Assembly: GCA_001404055.1 (NCBI GenBank)
Contig: CXTY01000005.1
Location: 248,001 to 312,000, forward strand
Source of the DNA: Roseibium album
GTDB lineage: Bacteria > Pseudomonadota > Alphaproteobacteria > Rhizobiales > Stappiaceae
Reading direction: 5' to 3'
DNA length: 64,000 bases
Shown: positions 41,059-49,580 of the stretch, piece after piece
How the letters are laid out: each line of letters starts with the position of its first letter
How positions within the stretch are numbered: the first letter of the stretch is position 1
Notes under the pieces: model-generated
The model's input: the letters and a program-made list of their open reading frames with translations, nothing else
What the model was told of the DNA's origin: nothing
Database searches by the model: none
Made by a program: the position numbers and the translations under genes

Positions 41059-42216
41059 TCAGCCTTTAACGCTCGCTGCAATCCTGTCCAGCCACATGGA
41101 AAAGCCAATGGCAGGAACATCCTGGTCGGCCCCGAGAAGGGTCACCAGCTTGTCGTAGCGGCCACCTCCAACCAGCGGACCGGCAATCCTGCTGGACGCA
41201 GAATGAATTTCAAAAACAAAGCCGGAATAATAATCAAGGCGGCGTCCGAAGTCTGCGGCGAAAGTCAGACGCGCCGGATCGATGCCCTTGTCTTCAAGAG
41301 CAGACAGCCTTTGCTCGAATGCCGCGATGGGCTGTTCCAGCTCAAGTCCGAATTCCTTGCTGAAATTGCGCAAGGACGCAGCGGACTTTGAACAATCGGC
41401 TTCCAGGTCAAGATAAGCTGTCAGGATTTCAGCGGCTTTATCATGTCCGCCTGATCCGCTTGCCAATGCCGCCTGTTCCAGGAAGCGATCAGCAATTTCT
41501 CCAGGCGTGCGGCCTCCGACTGCAGAAATGCCTGCAATCGAAAGAAGATCTTCAACGACTGCATGTGCTGCTTCCGGCGCGGTGCCTTCCAGGGCGGACA
41601 GGAAGCCGAGGCGGACGTCGCGGCTGTCGTCTTCTTCAGCTGCGTTGCCACCGGACATACGGTTGATTGCAGCCTTTAGCTTGTCGGTCTCACCAAAAAG
41701 ATCACGAAGACGTCGGCGCCACACTGTCGGCAGTTCGAGATTTTCCAGAACGGAAGCAAACAACGTCTCGTCGCCGATGCGGATGGAACAATCCGTCAGA
41801 CCAAACGTTTCGAGTGCCTTGATGGACAGAGCCAGCATATCTGCATCTGCACCCGCAATATCAGCGCGGCCAAGGCTTTCTGCCCCAAGCTGGGGAATTT
41901 CTCCAACCCCGTCAGGACGCTGACGAAAGACCGGGCCGTTGTAACAATAGGCGGCTGGCAGGGAGCTAGCTTCCCCGGAAAGATGATGACGGCACACAGG
42001 AATGGTAAAGTCCGGCCTGAGGCACAGATCTACGCTGTCCGCGCCATTGGTCAAAAACAGCCGGCGGCGGATATCTTCACCCGTCAGATCCAGAAAGACG
42101 TCAGCAGGCTGCAGAATCGGCGGGCTGACATGATCATGCCCGGCTGCCTTGAACAGCTCAAGAACCGCTTCGATCTTCGCCGGATCCAGTCCGGATGTCT
42201 GTGCCGCCGGTATCAT
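41059..42216 (-). CDS. hisZ: ATP phosphoribosyltransferase regulatory subunit
   Basis: A 385-residue class II aminoacyl-tRNA-synthetase-like protein without aminoacylating activity. Features: LFLTNGADSVDLCLRPDFT (motif 2-like), GPVFRQRPDGVGEIPQLG, and GGRYDKLVTLLGADQDVPAIGFSMWLDR at the C-terminus. HisZ forms a complex with short HisG and provides histidine feedback control. The start is ATG 42216, or TTG 42219; it follows hisS directly, with a GAGGG ribosome site inside the hisS end. Confidence 0.93.
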   Translation of the reverse strand: MIPAAQTSGLDPAKIEAVLELFKAAGHDHVSPPILQPADVFLDLTGEDIRRRLFLTNGADSVDLCLRPDFTIPVCRHHLSGEASSLPAAYCYNGPVFRQRPDGVGEIPQLGAESLGRADIAGADADMLALSIKALETFGLTDCSIRIGDETLFASVLENLELPTVWRRRLRDLFGETDKLKAAINRMSGGNAAEEDDSRDVRLGFLSALEGTAPEAAHAVVEDLLSIAGISAVGGRTPGEIADRFLEQAALASGSGGHDKAAEILTAYLDLEADCSKSAASLRNFSKEFGLELEQPIAAFEQRLSALEDKGIDPARLTFAADFGRRLDYYSGFVFEIHSASSRIAGPLVGGGRYDKLVTLLGADQDVPAIGFSMWLDRIAASVKG

Positions 42217-42219
42217 CAA

Positions 42220-43689
42220 TCAGCCCTCTTTCTGGCGTCTGCGGTCTTCGGCCTGGCCGTCCAGAATCCCGCGCACGGTCTCAATCAGGTCAGCTTCCTT
42301 TGTGGTGACCTGCGCCGGGCGGCTTTCGCGCCATGTGACGTTGTCGGTGATTTCCTCCGAAAGCCGTTTGCCTTCGATAAGGTCCTTGATTTGAATTTCT
42401 CCGGCATCCCGTTCGTCAGAGCCCTGAATGATTGCGACCGGGCAACCGCGCCGATCAGCATACTTCAGCTGGTTGCCGAATTTCTTCCAGTTGCCCTGGT
42501 ACATTTCTGCCCGGACGCCGACCGAACGCAGATCCTGAGCCATCTTCTGATATCGACCCAAGGCTTCGACGTCGCCATCCATAACGGTGACCAGAACCGG
42601 TGCAACAACATCGTTGGTGTCCAGCTTGCCAAGGTTCTTCAATGCCGTCATCAGGCGCGAAACGCCGATGGAAAAGCCCGTTGCTGGAACGTCCCGGCCG
42701 GTAAAGCGTTTGACCAGCCCGTCATAACGTCCTCCACCACCAACTGACCCGAACTGGACAACCTCACCCTTTTCGTTGGTGACATCGAACAGGAGTTCAG
42801 CTTCGAATACAGTACCGGTATAATACTCCAGACCGCGAACGACGGACGGGTCGATCTTGACCCTGTCTTCTTCATAACCGCAGGACGCAAATATCGCGGC
42901 CATGGTGTTCAGTTCGGTGACACCTTCGTTTTCAAGCGAACCGGTGCCGGACACAAACGCGACGATGCTGTCAATTGCTGTTTCCTCAAGCTCCGCGCCC
43001 TTGGTGAAGTCACCGCTTTCGTCCTTGCGGCCCGCTCCGAGCAAAAGTCGCACACCTTCGATGCCGAACTTGTCTAGCTTGTCTATGGCGCGCAGAACTG
43101 TCAGGCGTCGGGCCTCATGTTCTTCGCCGCCGAGGCCGATTGACTCCAGAACGCCGTCCAGAACCTTGCGGTTGTTCACCCGGATGACATAGTCGCCACG
43201 CGGAATGCCGAGGGCTTCCATTGTGTCTGCCATCATCATGCACATTTCTGCATCGGCCTGTACGCCGGGCGCGCCAACCGTGTCAGCATCGAACTGCATG
43301 AATTGGCGGAACCGGCCCGGTCCCGGCTTTTCGTTACGGTAAACCCAACCCGACCGATAGGTGCGGTATGGCAGCTGGATTTCGTTGATGTTTTCAGATA
43401 CGTGCCGCGCGAGCGGTGCGGTCAGATCGTATCGAAGGCTCATCCATTGCTCGTCTTCATCCTGAACGGAAAAGACACCAGCATTCGGGCGGTCCGTGTC
43501 CGGCAGAAATTTGCCAAGGCAATCGGTATATTCAAATGCTGGTGTTTCGACCGGGTCGAAGCCATAGCGTTCATAGACTGCACGGATGCGCCCAAGCATT
43601 TCGTCTGTGGCGCGGATGTCTTCGGCAGAGCGATCAACAAAGCCGCGCGGCAAGCGGGCCTTTAGTTTATTCGGTTTTTTCTTGGCCAT
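42220..43689 (-). CDS. hisS: Histidyl-tRNA synthetase
   Basis: A 489-residue class II synthetase from ATG 43689. Motif 2 is in [13 protein letters not shown], the HisA-type motif is in [17 protein letters not shown], and motif 3 is in GFSIGVSRL. The anticodon-binding domain occupies the C-terminal 100 residues. It attaches histidine to tRNA-His. It is the first gene of an operon with hisZ and hisG, a grouping known in alphaproteobacteria and understandable because HisZ is derived from HisS. Confidence 0.95.
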
Positions 43690-44070
43690 GAAGTTTCTTG
43701 GGTCCTGGCGAGTTCCTGGCCAATTGCGGGGCGAAATTCCGCCAATCAACCCTGGTCATGTTGGCGTTGTCCTAGACGAAACGGAACCTGAGAGCAAGGT
43801 TATCGGCTGCTTCTGCAGGCCGGGAAGCATCAGCTTGTTTTGAAACTTGAAATCGAAATCACGATGAATGTCTTGTTTCGATCACGGCCGCAGATAAAAG
43901 GAGCGGCTGGTGCGCGACTGAAATCCAGCGAGATTTTGATTGGAAGGCCTCGCGAATTTGGCATGTCTTTTCTTGCCATTAATCTCTTACAAGCTATGGT
44001 CCGCGCGAACTTGTTGGGGTAGTGGCCCGGTTACCAATTGCCGGGTAAAGTGAAGTGGTTGAATACAGAT
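43690..44070. other. Intergenic region between hisS and the glycosyltransferase operon
   Basis: About 380 bases between divergent genes. A weak candidate sigma-70 promoter toward the plus strand is TTGCCA (43973-43978), 16-base spacer, TATGGT (43995-44000). A small hairpin GGCGAAATTCCGCC lies near 43731-43744. Short reading frames here lack ribosome sites and were not annotated. Confidence 0.35.
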
Positions 44071-45231
44071 ATGGATAGTGCGGTGGGCATTGTTGAAAGC
44101 AAGGCGGATGTGAGCGGGGGCGCGGTTCAAGGAAACCCCGGCTCGAACGCAGCGGAGCTGAGTGTCATTTTGCCAAGCTTTAACGAGGCCGCAAACATTC
44201 CAATCCTTGTAGATCTCCTCGACACTGCATTGGTCGATGTTGCCTGGGAAGCGATTGTCGTGGATGACAATTCGCCTGACGGAACAACAGAGGTCGCCAG
44301 AAACATTGCACGGTCCGACCCGCGAGTTCGCGTCATACGCAGGATAGGACGCCGAGGGCTGTCCGGGGCCTGCATTGAGGGCATCCTTGCATCATCAGCC
44401 CCATATGTTGCGGTCATGGATGCTGACCTCCAGCATGATGAAACGCTGCTTCCAAAAATGCTGGCCGAAATCAAGCAGGACGATACCGATCTGGTGGTTG
44501 CCAGCCGAAAAGTCGACGGCGGCGAAATTGGAGAAGGTCTTTCCTCTTTTCGCACTTGGGGCTCCAACGTTGCCAACGGTCTGGCGCAAAAGCTCTTGAA
44601 CGTGACGCTCAAGGACCCGATGAGCGGATTTTTCATGGTTCGCCGTGAAAAGGCTGAAGAAATTGCGCCGAGACTGTCGCCTCAGGGCTTCAAGATCCTG
44701 CTTGACCTTGTTTCAAGCGCCAATGGCGCGTTGAAAATCAAGGAGCTGCCTTTCACCTTCCGCGAACGCCAGCATGGGGAGAGCAAACTCGACACTCTGG
44801 TGACACTGGACTATTTCGGACTATTGCTCGCTAAATATTTTGGCGACGTTGTCTCTGTTCGCTTTCTGATGTTCGGCCTTGTGGGGGCAAGCGGTCTCGT
44901 TGTGCACCTGATAGCACTGCGCATGTTTATTCTTGGCGATTTCAGCTTCAACCTGGCCCAGACCGCAGCGTCTTTTGTTGCCATGACCTCGAACTTCTTC
45001 CTGAACAACCAACTGACCTATCGCGACAGGCGCTTGCGCGGCGTTGGAGCTCTGATCGGGCTGCTGACCTTTTATGCCGTCTGTTCCGTGGGGGTTCTGG
45101 CCAACGTTGGTGTTGCTAACTTGATTTATGCCGATCCGGCCTATTGGTGGTTGGCCGGAACCGCTGGTGCAGTCATGGGTGCTGTGTGGAACTATGCAGC
45201 CAGCTCTGCCCTGACCTGGCGCAGATCTTAA
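44071..45231 (+). CDS. Polyprenyl-phosphate glycosyltransferase (DPM1-like) fused to GtrA domain
   Basis: 386 residues from ATG 44071; an in-frame TTG at 44038 is possible. The N-terminal GT2 domain has IVVDDNSPDGT and MDADLQHDETLLPKM, the nucleotide-sugar and DxD-type metal sites of dolichol-phosphate-mannose synthase-like enzymes. The C-terminal 140 residues form a four-helix GtrA-type membrane domain. Such fusions transfer a sugar from a nucleotide donor to polyprenyl phosphate and may help flip the product. The next gene, an ArnT/GT39-like transferase starting 9 bases later, is the expected user. The sugar cannot be identified; rhizobial RgtE and RgtA-D galacturonosyl systems are a close architectural parallel. 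Confidence 0.88.
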   Translation: MDSAVGIVESKADVSGGAVQGNPGSNAAELSVILPSFNEAANIPILVDLLDTALVDVAWEAIVVDDNSPDGTTEVARNIARSDPRVRVIRRIGRRGLSGACIEGILASSAPYVAVMDADLQHDETLLPKMLAEIKQDDTDLVVASRKVDGGEIGEGLSSFRTWGSNVANGLAQKLLNVTLKDPMSGFFMVRREKAEEIAPRLSPQGFKILLDLVSSANGALKIKELPFTFRERQHGESKLDTLVTLDYFGLLLAKYFGDVVSVRFLMFGLVGASGLVVHLIALRMFILGDFSFNLAQTAASFVAMTSNFFLNNQLTYRDRRLRGVGALIGLLTFYAVCSVGVLANVGVANLIYADPAYWWLAGTAGAVMGAVWNYAASSALTWRRS

Positions 45232-45240
45232 AGGTCAGAT

Positions 45241-46740
45241 GTGACAGCCGATCTGAAGTCAGAAGAACTGCCGTTCTTTCTTCGCCCCAGCGGTCTGATC
45301 CTGATTGTCGGATCGTTGATGGCGCTGAAACTGTTTGCTGCTAGCAACGCCCATTTCGTTGAAGACGAAGCCTATTACAGGATCTGGGGTCTCAATCCGG
45401 CATTCAGCTACTACGACCATCCGCCGATGATCGGCTGGTGGATCGCGACGGGTCAGGCCTTTTTCGGCGACACGATATTTGCTGTTCGTGCCCTGGTTCT
45501 CCTGCTTGGGCTGGTCGGATCGATCGCGCTTTGGCGAACCGCCAGTATTCTCTTCGACAGGCGGGTTGCAGGCTGGGCCGTATTATTCCTCAACTCAAGT
45601 CTTCTTGTCGGCATTGGCGGCATGCTGGCGACGCCGGATGCCCCTTCGGTTTTCTTCTGGGGGCTTTGCCTCTGGACGCTGGCGGAATTGATCCACTCCC
45701 GGAACGCCAACTGGTGGCTGCTCGTGGGTCTGATGGCCGGGTTGGGCTTGTTGTCAAAATATTCCGTGCTTTTTCTCGGGACCGGAATTGTCCTGTGGCT
45801 GCTATGGGTGCCTGAAGCACGCCGCTGTTGGAGCGCCTGGCAGCTTTGGGCAGGCGGATTGATCGCTGTGGTCTGCTTTCTACCGGTGCTCTACTGGAAC
45901 CATCTTCATGAGTGGATGAGTTTCTACAAGCAGTTTGGCAGGGCCGGAACCAGTGGATTTACCTCCAAGTATATCTTCGAGTTTCTCGGCGCAACACTGG
46001 GGCTGCTCAATCCGGTGATTGCCGTCTTGACGATATTGGGTTGTGCTCAGCTTATTAGAACGGCGAGAAAAAGAGGCAGCGTTGCCTCGTTGCTGCTGCT
46101 TACCTGCCTGCCGTTTGCGCTTTACCTGCTTTATCACTCGCTTCATTCACGCGTGCAGGCCAATTGGCCCGCGCCTTTGTTTCCGGCACTTGCAATAATG
46201 GCGGCAGTTTTCGTCGCCGGATTGCGGCCAGAGCAGCACTTCTGGAACAAGTTCGCTGTCGTGGGTGTTCTTCTTGGCATTGTGGTTGCCGTGTTGGTTC
46301 AAATTCATGCTGTCTGGCCGGTTACAGGACAGCTAGCCCGCAAGGACCCAACCTTTCAATTGCGCGGCTGGCCGGAAATTGGAATGGAACTTCGTGAAAT
46401 CGCCACAGCCGAAAATGCAGAATACGTGGCGACCACCAGTTATGGATTGAATGGTCAGATTGATTTCCTGATGAAGGACGATCTGCCCGTTATTCAGCTT
46501 ACCGAGCGCATACGCTATATCATGATGCCGGAACCGGACATGAGCCTGTTTGACATGCCGGGTCTTTATGTGACGGAGAAACGTCGTAACAAGGCAGGCG
46601 AACTTCAAAAGTCCTTCGAGACGGTTGAAGAGTTGGCTATCTTGGAACGGCAGGTCAAAGGCGTGCCACTAGAGGATCTGGTGGTCTACAAGGTACAGGG
46701 ACGGATCGGGCCTGTTTTCGAACCTATCCCATCGAATTAA
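45241..46740 (+). CDS. ArnT/GT39-like polyprenyl-linked glycosyltransferase
   Basis: A 499-residue protein starting at GTG 45241 with AAGG 7 bases upstream. About ten membrane helices are followed by a soluble periplasmic C-terminal domain of about 115 residues. The catalytic acidic pair of the GT-C fold is in the first loop (HFVEDEAYYRIWGL), and SYYDHPPMIGWW is typical of GT39/PMT_2. It should move a sugar from polyprenyl phosphate to an envelope acceptor such as lipid A, core or a protein. It forms an operon with the DPM1-GtrA gene. Confidence 0.88.
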   Translation: MTADLKSEELPFFLRPSGLILIVGSLMALKLFAASNAHFVEDEAYYRIWGLNPAFSYYDHPPMIGWWIATGQAFFGDTIFAVRALVLLLGLVGSIALWRTASILFDRRVAGWAVLFLNSSLLVGIGGMLATPDAPSVFFWGLCLWTLAELIHSRNANWWLLVGLMAGLGLLSKYSVLFLGTGIVLWLLWVPEARRCWSAWQLWAGGLIAVVCFLPVLYWNHLHEWMSFYKQFGRAGTSGFTSKYIFEFLGATLGLLNPVIAVLTILGCAQLIRTARKRGSVASLLLLTCLPFALYLLYHSLHSRVQANWPAPLFPALAIMAAVFVAGLRPEQHFWNKFAVVGVLLGIVVAVLVQIHAVWPVTGQLARKDPTFQLRGWPEIGMELREIATAENAEYVATTSYGLNGQIDFLMKDDLPVIQLTERIRYIMMPEPDMSLFDMPGLYVTEKRRNKAGELQKSFETVEELAILERQVKGVPLEDLVVYKVQGRIGPVFEPIPSN

Positions 46741-46792
46741 TCGAGCCGCAATCAAAGTGCAGATCGATAAGAGACTTGCAAAGTTATTGTGA

Positions 46793-47644
46793 ATGCCGCA
46801 GGGAAGGTTTCCTGTTTTCTTTCAGTCCGGTCTGCTTTCGAAATTGATGAAGAGAATTACACTTGGTGCTCTGGATTACGGCCTCGCTTTCGGGGTCGAC
46901 CGGGCTTTGCGCAGCCTGGTTGAACAGGGGCGTTTGAGCGCGCTTGGCGCTCTCGTTGCGACCGAGCTTTGGCCACGTGAATTCAGACCGCTTCAGGAGA
47001 CCGCCGAAAAAGTTGGAAAACGGGCGCTTTTTGGAGTGACGCTTGCTTTTACCGGTGACAGGGTAATGCCTGTGAGTTCGCGCATGCAGGAGATCTACGG
47101 CGACCTGATGTGGAGCCGGGAAAAACTGCAGCGACGTGCATTCTTTCGGCTGCTACCGGACGAACTGCTTTTGACCGAGGCTCAGGCGCAATTGGCGCGA
47201 TACAGCATCTTGATGAAGAGGCAGCCCGATTTTGTTGCTGTGCGCGAGGGACTTCTGGCCAGAACCTCGTTGGCGAAAATAGTTTTCAGGGCGATCAAAC
47301 ACGCCGATTTCGATGTGCCGCCGCTTGTTATCTTGCCAGTACGGCGCGGTTTGAAAACGCACAGGCTCAGGCGCCTGGCCAAATCCTTCGGTCTCGAAGT
47401 TTTGCCCAAGGCCAATCCTCTGCCGGAAATCAATGATCCGGAGGAATTGCATCGCCTGTTGCACAATCATTTCGATGGTATGGTTGACCGCAGTTTTGTT
47501 GCAGCCATTCCCGGACGGTCTGACGATCGCCTCAGGCGTGACGAACATCGCAAGAAAATCGCCATTCGAGAGTGCCAGTACGAAGTTCTGTCCAGTGATC
47601 GGTTTTTCCGGACGTTGGACAAAAAGGACGTGTTTTTGAATTAG
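46793..47644 (+). CDS. ChbG/HpnK (YdjC)-like protein, probably catalytically dead
   Basis: A 283-residue protein, or 265 if the start is the ATG at 46847, where family homology begins. The order of conserved blocks follows the YdjC/ChbG/HpnK deacetylase fold, but the key residues appear altered. The usual NADDFG block is GALDYG, the HxHxxL block is FGVTLAF, and the DGHQHxH block is FVAVREGL. The late PGxxDD block (IPGRSDDRL) and the region after it remain. If the alignment is right, metal binding and deacetylation are lost. It is the third gene downstream of two lipid-linked glycosyltransferases, so a binding or accessory role in that pathway is possible. Confidence 0.65.
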   Translation: MPQGRFPVFFQSGLLSKLMKRITLGALDYGLAFGVDRALRSLVEQGRLSALGALVATELWPREFRPLQETAEKVGKRALFGVTLAFTGDRVMPVSSRMQEIYGDLMWSREKLQRRAFFRLLPDELLLTEAQAQLARYSILMKRQPDFVAVREGLLARTSLAKIVFRAIKHADFDVPPLVILPVRRGLKTHRLRRLAKSFGLEVLPKANPLPEINDPEELHRLLHNHFDGMVDRSFVAAIPGRSDDRLRRDEHRKKIAIRECQYEVLSSDRFFRTLDKKDVFLN

Positions 47645-47809: not shown

Positions 47810-47862
47810 AGATTGTTTTTGTTCGTTGAAAGTTCGTATCAGCGGTGCGGCAGGGGGGTAGA

Positions 47863-48552
47863 GTGGAAGAAATTAGAGATTTCCTGAAAAACAGTTTTTC
47901 CTTGGAAGGGCTCGAGCCGGGATTGGCGACCGGTTTATCCCGTCTCGCCAGATCAATGAAAATTTCCGCAGGTACGATACTTTTTGAAAACGGTGACCCG
48001 GGAAACGGCTTTTACGCTGTACTTGAAGGGTCTCTCAAGGTGTCGCTATTGTCCGTTGATGGTGACGAACAGTTGCTCGCCGTACTTGGACCGGGCGATC
48101 TCGTTGGTGAACTTGCGTTGCTGGACGGGCGCCCGCGGTCCGCTACAGTCATTGCTTTGAAAGATGCGCAGCTGGCCTTCGTGGACAAGGCGGCTTTTCA
48201 GCGCTTCTCCGATGAACACCCTGCTGTCTATCGTCATATGCTGTCGATTGTCGGCAAAAGATTGCGTCAGGCAAACGATGTGTTGGCGGCGCGCTCGTTC
48301 CTGCCGCTTCCTGGCCGTGTTGCGCAAACTCTGCTCCAACTTGCCGAGACGTTCGGAAAACCTCTGGACGATGGCCGGATGCTGATTCATTACAAGCTCA
48401 GCCAGGCCGATATTGCCAACATGGCAGGTGCAGCACGAGAGAACGTCAGCCGCGTGCTGAATGATTGGAAACGTTCCGGCACGATCAGCCGTATTTCCGG
48501 TTACTACTGCATCGAACAACCGGATTTTCTGGAAAAGGCTTCAACGCTCTAA
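47863..48552 (+). CDS. CRP/FNR-family regulator
   Basis: 229 residues from GTG 47863, with GGGGG 5 bases upstream. N-terminal cyclic-nucleotide-binding beta-barrel (ILFENGDPGNGFYAVLEG; phosphate-binding-cassette region GELALLDGRPRSATV, close to the CRP consensus with Arg-Ser conserved). Long dimerisation helix and C-terminal HTH (SQADIANMAGAARENVSRVL). No N-terminal cysteines, so it is not an Fe-S FNR. Binding of cAMP is plausible, as a class III cyclase is in the same window, but not shown. Its end overlaps the convergent NsrR-like gene by 4 bases. Confidence 0.9.
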   Translation: MEEIRDFLKNSFSLEGLEPGLATGLSRLARSMKISAGTILFENGDPGNGFYAVLEGSLKVSLLSVDGDEQLLAVLGPGDLVGELALLDGRPRSATVIALKDAQLAFVDKAAFQRFSDEHPAVYRHMLSIVGKRLRQANDVLAARSFLPLPGRVAQTLLQLAETFGKPLDDGRMLIHYKLSQADIANMAGAARENVSRVLNDWKRSGTISRISGYYCIEQPDFLEKASTL

Positions 48553-48980: not shown

Positions 48981-49042
48981 GGCAGGGTCCTATAAAACAT
49001 TCATCTCAGATGTTGATTTTAGACAAGAGATGTGGCATTTAA

Positions 49043-49054
49043 AAGATGCATCTT
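49043..49054. promoter_or_regulatory. Candidate NsrR operator
   Basis: AAGATGCATCTT is a perfect 12-base palindrome made of the NsrR half-site motif (AAGATGCAT), preceded by GATGTGGCATTTAAAA. It lies 23 bases before the haemoglobin start. Less perfect related bases (CATCT-C-AGATG) lie nearer the nsrR start, suggesting autoregulation. Confidence 0.6.
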
Positions 49055-49076
49055 GAATGAATGTTTGGAGAAGGTG

Positions 49077-49580
49077 ATGGCAGTCGGTAATTCCGTCATG
49101 AATAAGAACAGTTTTCAGGGGCGGTCCGGTAATTCGGCAGGAGACCGTTTGCGCCGTTACGAAGACGTGGACTCGCAAGCGATACAGGTGCTGGTGCATA
49201 CATTTTACGGATGCATTCGAAAACATCCGCGTTTGGGTGAAATCTTTGAACGCCGTTTGGCTGGCCGATGGGACGAACACCTGCCGCGGATGGAAGCCTT
49301 CTGGCAATCCGTGTTGCTGAAAAATGGCGCCTACAAGGGCAAGCCCGTTCCGGCGCATCTTAAACAGAAGGAACTTGTGAGTTCCGATTATGGCGAGTGG
49401 CTCGGTGTCTTTCGCCCCGTCGTGCGGGAGCTATTTGTGCCGGACCTGGCGGATGAGATCATTCTGGTCGCCGAACGGATAGCCCAGAGCCTTTGGCACG
49501 CCACCTTTGGATTTGCCGGTTCAGCCCCACCACCGGAGCTTTCCTCCCAACAAGCAGAATGGAGTGGATCATGCTGGTAG
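49077..49580 (+). CDS. Group III truncated haemoglobin
   Basis: A 167-residue protein from ATG 49077, with GGAGAAGG directly upstream; a start at 49032 would place the operator inside the gene. Group III features: FYGCIRKHPRLGEIFERR, the MEAFWQSVLLKNGAYKGKPV segment (B-E region) and a proximal histidine in PVPAHLKQ. Truncated haemoglobins of this group bind O2 and NO; linkage to NsrR suggests NO detoxification or sensing. The last 10 bases overlap the next gene. Confidence 0.9.
   Translation: MAVGNSVMNKNSFQGRSGNSAGDRLRRYEDVDSQAIQVLVHTFYGCIRKHPRLGEIFERRLAGRWDEHLPRMEAFWQSVLLKNGAYKGKPVPAHLKQKELVSSDYGEWLGVFRPVVRELFVPDLADEIILVAERIAQSLWHATFGFAGSAPPPELSSQQAEWSGSCW

Follow-up and report, generated by a model that had tools for sequence, protein, structure and literature searches.

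What becomes of a sugar deacetylase fold once the residues that carry out deacetylation are gone? The question is raised by a gene in a 64,000-nucleotide stretch of Roseibium album DNA (contig CXTY01000005.1, positions 248,001 to 312,000), here called the window. A reading made from the sequence alone had proposed that positions 46793-47644 encode a pseudoenzyme of the ChbG/HpnK fold, and this proposal is well supported by the fold, the residue census, the phylogeny, and the selection analysis presented below. The window protein belongs to a group of YdjC/ChbG-fold proteins that lack the general base and the metal ligand H125 in every row read, and that are kept intact under purifying selection. 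In other words, a bacterial family carries an intact and selected YdjC-family member that is unable to work by the known ChbG mechanism.

The reading frame and the fold

The frame 46793-47644 on the plus strand is open over its whole length, as the sequence-only reading had stated, and only its start has to be revised. The ATG at 46793 adopted there precedes the probable start codon, the ATG at 46847 (MKRITLGALDYG), by 18 codons. The protein similarity among relatives begins at the latter position, and seven relatives have a TAG within the stretch aligned to the longer frame, which in L006 and L018, for example, lies directly 5' of the methionine. The gene for the YdjC-fold pseudoenzyme, designated ydjC', thus comprises 265 codons from the conserved ATG (46847-47644, plus strand), and this frame is unbroken in 37 of 37 Roseibium-genus genomes. 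The 54 bases of the 5' extension (46793-46846, plus strand) display no conservation at the protein level and are probably untranslated. A terminator-like hairpin lies inside them (46798-46815), and the region around ydjC' has no excess of such hairpins (8 found versus 5.7 ± 3.0 in shuffled sequences).

The frame 46793-47644 matches the Pfam YdjC family (PF04794) over its residues 22-276, with 52.8 bits against a curated cut-off of 29.7. When solved structures were searched by sequence alone, a single unrelated match was returned (E 0.42). An AlphaFold model of the window protein, built from an input of 34 sequences of the genus, had a mean pLDDT of 87.2 and a pTM of 0.87, the other four models lying well below this best one (pLDDT 70-76 versus 87). 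VIA aligned the model to ChbG (7vi8) with Z 22.5 and rmsd 3.1 over 237 residues, which bears out the fold named in the sequence-only reading, to 2i5i with Z 23.2 and rmsd 2.9 over 237 residues, and to 2e67 with Z 17.0; the alignments to the three ChbG-type structures span 220-237 residues. Foldseek gave E 8e-10 to 7vi8 and 2.2e-10 to 2i5i, and its seven best PDB chains were from ChbG, EF3048 (2i5i), TTHB029 (2e67), and CmCBDA (E 2e-10 to 3e-7). The protein therefore shares with the ChbG/YdjC family both the whole-length fold and a Pfam match above the cut-off.

Retention of a fold after the loss of catalytic or metal-binding residues has precedents in the CE4/NodB fold, namely 4M1B (Ba0150), 6hm9 (a BA3943 mutant, according to the title of the structure entry), and probably 2VYO, together with the metal-free 3CL6. 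In the sections consulted of PMC10967932, 4M1B, 2VYO, and 3CL6 appear as dead or metal-free members of this related fold, 3CL6 being described as a non-metal-dependent enzyme. In contrast to ChbG, these proteins belong to another family (polysaccharide deacetylase NodB) and match our model less well (Z 11-12).

It should be mentioned that the hopanoid role implied by the name HpnK is unlikely. The fold family is shared by name, and a canonical YdjC copy in a second family (L129, described below) has an HpnK match well under the cut-off (45 bits versus 232.6). The window protein, however, has no match to the HpnK profile (TIGR03473) or to any other NCBIfam model at E 0.001, and no hopene cyclase (TIGR01507) was found in its genome; as a control, the cyclase profile gave matches in 2 of 14 genomes, both below the cut-off. 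Two Roseibium species are also reported to lack all six key hopanoid genes, according to the part of PMC12583986 consulted.

The active site, residue by residue

In the portion of PMC9402603 consulted, Klebsiella ChbG uses D10 as the base, D11, H61, and H125 as metal ligands, and H206 as the acid, with R223 among the acetate contacts. Our column numbers are those of E. coli ChbG, whose H203 and R220 were taken, through the alignment, as Klebsiella H206 and R223. We compared 64 pseudoenzyme rows with 69 canonical rows. The former come from 38 Roseibium-genus genomes, 12 loci of four other Stappiaceae genera, and 14 loci of genus g74 in a second family, f44 (by source, the window's own row and those of 36 relatives, the 13 of L105-L116 and L120, with L120 being of the same genus, and the 14 from g74). 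The latter comprise 64 sequences from genomes of neither Stappiaceae nor f44, the L129 copy, the second copies of three Stappiaceae genomes (L117-L119), and ChbG of E. coli; these canonical rows were found with a Roseibium profile and are thus not a random sample of the family.

All five catalytic positions are kept in 69 of 69 canonical rows. In the pseudoenzyme rows, the general base D10 is kept in 0/64, the metal ligands H61 and H125 in 1/64 and 0/64, and the general acid histidine in 1/64, whereas the metal ligand D11 is kept in 58/64, the other six having Glu, so that the position is acidic throughout. The window protein has GALDYG where NADDFG is canonical and no HxH, just as the sequence-only reading had noted. 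Its L9 (46871-46876 with D10) occupies the position of the lost base, and D10 that of D11; T65 of G63-V64-T65 (47033-47041) stands at the H61 position; A131-V132-R133-E134-G135 (47237-47251) replaces the canonical DGHxH, whose H133 is the metal ligand H125; and I221 (47507-47509) stands at the general acid position. Of the metal-binding positions, those of H61 and H125 are altered, in line with the earlier statement, and that of D11 is still acidic. Relocated Asp/His ligands, which that reading had named as a possible objection, were also looked for, and none of the histidine columns holds throughout the 64 rows (the highest count is 40/64, in a column that is gapped in the second family).

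The group shares with canonical proteins the acidic D11 position, E111, Q115, and the acetate-site Arg. This Arg (R241 in the window protein, taken as Klebsiella R223) is kept in 63/64 pseudoenzyme rows, but the residue three positions later, Glu in 69/69 canonical rows, is Gln or His in 64/64 (R241 to Q244, 47567-47578). There are 25 columns with at least 95% conservation in the canonical set; in the 64 rows, 8 of these hold at a level of 90% or more, and 17 fall below it. Some of these 17 changes are mild (L64, F119, D233, and A8). Besides the catalytic positions, eight residues that are nearly invariant in canonical enzymes, D131, G132, H135, P140, R162, G191, M219, and E244, have gone from at least 56 and up to all 64 of the pseudoenzyme rows; binding of the ancestral substrate is therefore doubtful. 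The group also has invariant residues of its own, and its 16 columns at 95% or more hold no additional new one of catalytic type. W42 (46970-46972) occurs in 64/64 pseudoenzyme and 28/69 canonical rows, and P193 (47423-47425) in 64/64 and 0/69. R228-L229-R230-R231 (47528-47539), part of which is modelled at pLDDT under 50, forms a basic loop motif of the group, with R228 in 61/64.

Two g74 rows each retain one residue: L149 keeps the H61 position (GMHLSLTG) and L148 the acid position (VHPA). These two residues were therefore probably not all lost at once, and L149 and L148 are possible intermediates.

Distribution, origin, and selection

The gene ydjC' is present in the window's genome and in all 36 other Roseibium-genus genomes examined (46-89% identical), and none of the 23 genomes without a match in that same search of relatives belongs to Stappiaceae. 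At the level of a YdjC match, with part of these sequences read, the family is found in 81/81 Stappiaceae genomes. The catalytic residues are absent from all 12 loci of the four other Stappiaceae genera, which share the gene order, a conservation that the sequence-only reading had raised as a question; they are also absent from six more Stappiaceae copies beside GT39, counted outside the 64 rows (L286-L291; genera g27, g28, g142, and g143). A profile search across the order matched 113 of 397 genomes, namely 20 from Stappiaceae, 15 from f44, and 78 others. From these 78, 64 were fetched and read, the remainder being among the weaker matches, and all 64 have the full catalytic set. A search across the class (385 genomes, E 1e-12) gave 10 matches; one is the window's own, and the other nine, which include one from the same order, are all canonical.

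In f44, 14/14 g74 loci carry the pseudoenzyme. The one locus read from genus g140 of the same family, L129, has a canonical YdjC beside a GT2 gene (by Pfam), 4-6 kb from hisZ/hisS. Orthologues with canonical residues, which the sequence-only reading had named as a refutation, were not found among the Stappiaceae copies read at the locus. L129 may be an orthologue showing the ancestral state; it qualifies the pseudoenzyme reading and does not overturn it. With a canonical copy surviving in g140, a sister genus within f44, the group offers a natural experiment on the reuse of a sugar deacetylase fold. A separate YdjC-family gene in the window's genome (contig C35, 1085-1812, minus strand) is split into separate frames, and open copies of it, with RADD and GIHLTLT-type motifs, occur in other Roseibium genomes.

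The pseudoenzymes form one group (39 rows, support 100/99) in a tree for which 12 of the 37 Roseibium rows were taken; 14 canonical rows judged by eye to be alike were omitted from it, as was L001, the contig C35 locus of the window's genome. The group persists, with an SH-aLRT of 99, once 16 columns of the catalytic region and the longest canonical rows have been taken out, in a tree of 69 of the 133 rows that omitted eight long canonical, 29 other canonical, and 27 Roseibium rows. Because long branches meet in the 100/99 tree, one origin is favoured rather than proved. On these trees, a single loss of the base and H125 in the common ancestor is the favoured view; given the long branches, there may instead have been two separate losses. 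The loss of H61 and the acid may have come later and more than once. In both families, the gene lies near hisS/hisZ and an Rrf2 regulator, although g74 has it at the opposite flank of the his genes, and several loci in both families also have a small protein with a protoglobin match that stays below the cut-off.

The substitution rates give clear evidence of purifying selection on ydjC'. The pairs were chosen by us, with ydjC' extracted from 32 of 34 sources; of the 14 pairs, 10 gave a ydjC' value, three were saturated, and one (L070/L071) gave no value, and seven of the ten are unsaturated. Over the 10 Roseibium pairs with a value, dN/dS of ydjC' is 0.036-0.161, and it is below that of GT39 in 10/10. 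In the seven unsaturated pairs, the ranges are 0.036-0.156 for ydjC', 0.059-0.222 for GT39, and 0.022-0.108 for GT2-GtrA, and the three further pairs give 0.049-0.161 for ydjC'. The Crp gene is lower still where measured (0 to 0.108). Among the distant Roseibium species (L033-L039), ydjC' diverges fastest, with 45-59% identity compared with 58-65% for GT39 and 74-82% for GT2-GtrA.

Neighbouring genes and possible functions

Upstream of ydjC', on the plus strand, lie a GT2 glycosyltransferase fused to a GtrA-type membrane domain (44038-45231) and an ArnT-like glycosyltransferase (PMT_2/GT39, 45241-46740), which confirms the placement described in the sequence-only reading after a DPM1-GtrA fusion and an ArnT-like transferase. 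The usual next gene encodes a Crp/Fnr-family regulator (47845-48552, plus strand). The locus is marked by the divergent hisS (histidine-tRNA ligase, 42220-43749, minus strand), which adjoins hisZ (ATP phosphoribosyltransferase regulatory subunit, 41059-42219, minus strand), both assigned by family models. Of 37 Roseibium-genus loci, GT39 adjoins ydjC' in 36 (in the other, the contig ends there) and the Crp gene lies beside it in 35, within the stretch read. The order hisS / GT2-GtrA / GT39 / ydjC' / Crp is found in 12/12 loci of the four other Stappiaceae genera. A small protein encoded at 49032-49580, near the Crp and Rrf2 genes, has a protoglobin match below the cut-off (18.4 bits versus 25), and in f44, some loci have relatives of it next to ydjC' or canonical ydjC.

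Outside Stappiaceae this association breaks down. A GT39 search of the g74 genomes at E 0.001 gave no match in 12/14 and, in the other two, a longer protein that matched weakly (28%), and no GT2-GtrA fusion was found there, the GT2-domain matches having 28-33% identity for the best in each genome. Conversely, among 20 GT39 loci from other families, drawn mostly as the strongest from 79 genomes with a GT39 match, GT2-GtrA is present in 17 and hisS in 4, and YdjC in 0 within about 5 kb. The pair and the pseudoenzyme therefore each occur alone. Both sets of loci weaken the earlier suggestion that the protein has a binding, scaffold, or regulatory role for the modified glycolipid, and a YdjC match in a lipid-glycosylation cluster need not mean a deacetylase.

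The Bordetella lgm operon and NaxD provide two parallels for a lipid A setting, and LgmB was the only lgm member named in the part of the literature consulted. NaxD, a YdjC-superfamily protein of Francisella and Acinetobacter, removes the acetyl group from undecaprenyl-phosphate GalNAc ahead of the transfer of galactosamine to lipid A, according to the sections consulted of PMC11279074. The pseudoenzymes, which we liken to NaxD by its description rather than its sequence, share its fold family and, in Stappiaceae but not in g74, a setting beside a GT2 and an ArnT-like glycosyltransferase; they differ in lacking the catalytic residues, and the glycosyltransferase pair is widespread without YdjC. 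A separate canonical YdjC of Stappiaceae genus g29 (L117) lies beside weakly matching GT39 and GT2 genes, in a NaxD-like arrangement. Titles on Labrenzia lipid A yielded nothing relevant, and in the limited literature set searched, we found no paper with both "YdjC" and "pseudoenzyme" and none joining "YdjC", "GtrA", and "ArnT".

We interpret ydjC' as a retained pseudoenzyme because of the purifying selection and the group's own invariant residues, which probably reflect a new job rather than decay. Deacetylase chemistry would have been lost and the old cleft retained for binding. From the strand order of the model, the cleft would still hold D/E10 and the old acetate-site R241, together with the Glu-to-Gln change at Q244, and the newly fixed W42, P193, and R228/R231 would lie in loops after strands; these residues together would hold an anionic or N-acyl ligand uncleaved. 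A non-hydrolytic ligand-binding pseudoenzyme of this kind, probably an accessory or sensor protein for envelope sugar metabolism in Stappiaceae, has in our judgement about an even chance of being right, on the alignments and the model. Its target in Stappiaceae could be the polyprenyl-linked sugar of the GT2-GtrA/GT39 pair beside it; in g74, it would have to work without this pair, and a role in lipid glycosylation is possible only where the pair is present. A more tentative version, in which the YdjC/ChbG fold has gained a new protein function, places the loss in the common ancestor of Stappiaceae and g74, with the same cleft (D/E10, W42, P193, R228/R231, R241, and Q244) refitted for metal-free catalysis or for specific ligand sensing independent of the adjacent glycosyltransferases.

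The other readings fare differently. A functionless relic in decay would account for the lost catalytic residues and for the fast divergence at long distance, but the intact frames in 37/37 genus genomes, the dN/dS of 0.036-0.161, and the new invariant residues make this very improbable, and we reject it on the frames and dN/dS. Still harder to credit is an active metal-dependent deacetylase with relocated ligands; it could draw on the position of D11, acidic in 64/64 rows, but is rejected because the histidine columns are not conserved across these rows. That the protein serves specifically the GT2-GtrA/GT39 pathway of lipid glycosylation, as an accessory or scaffold subunit, is suggested by the strict gene order in Stappiaceae, by the comparable lipid A pathway in which canonical NaxD acts (PMC11279074, in the part consulted), and by the canonical YdjC of L117 beside its weakly matching transferases. 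Against it stand the presence of the gene in g74, where the pair is missing, the other-family loci, in which the pair does without YdjC (17/20 with GT2-GtrA, 0/20 with YdjC), and a block conserved across the Roseibium gap, which may point to separate control; such a subunit is unlikely. We regard a new metal-independent enzyme, performing different chemistry in the cleft with D/E10, R241, and Q244, as rather improbable. The acidic position 10 (64/64), R241 (63/64), the new invariant W42 and P193, and the low dN/dS are in keeping with it, as is the metal-free 3CL6 in a NodB-like fold (PMC10967932, in the part consulted); against it, the 16 columns at 95% or more include no other new invariant residue of catalytic type, and D10 drifts to Glu in 6/64 rows.

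The block in the GT39-ydjC' gap, TTGCAA-N11-ATGCCGCAGGGA (46776-46804, plus strand), is conserved in Roseibium and lies 71 bases before the ATG in the window; it may be a promoter or a regulator site. Its 29-base pattern, TTGMAA-N11-ATGMCGCAGGGA, occurs with at most three mismatches in 28/34 genus loci, 65-73 bases before the ATG, and inspection by eye did not reveal it in the upstream sequences viewed from the other Stappiaceae genera and f44. Among 2000 random 200-base pieces of the window, none had one to three mismatches to the block and 8 had zero, the latter being taken to overlap the real site. Across the genome, the block has one exact site (its own); single sites differ from it at one and at two positions, and 21 sites differ at three. 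These 24 sites compare with 7 for a reversed control pattern; a regulon run through the block was rejected on these counts, although a small one is conceivable.
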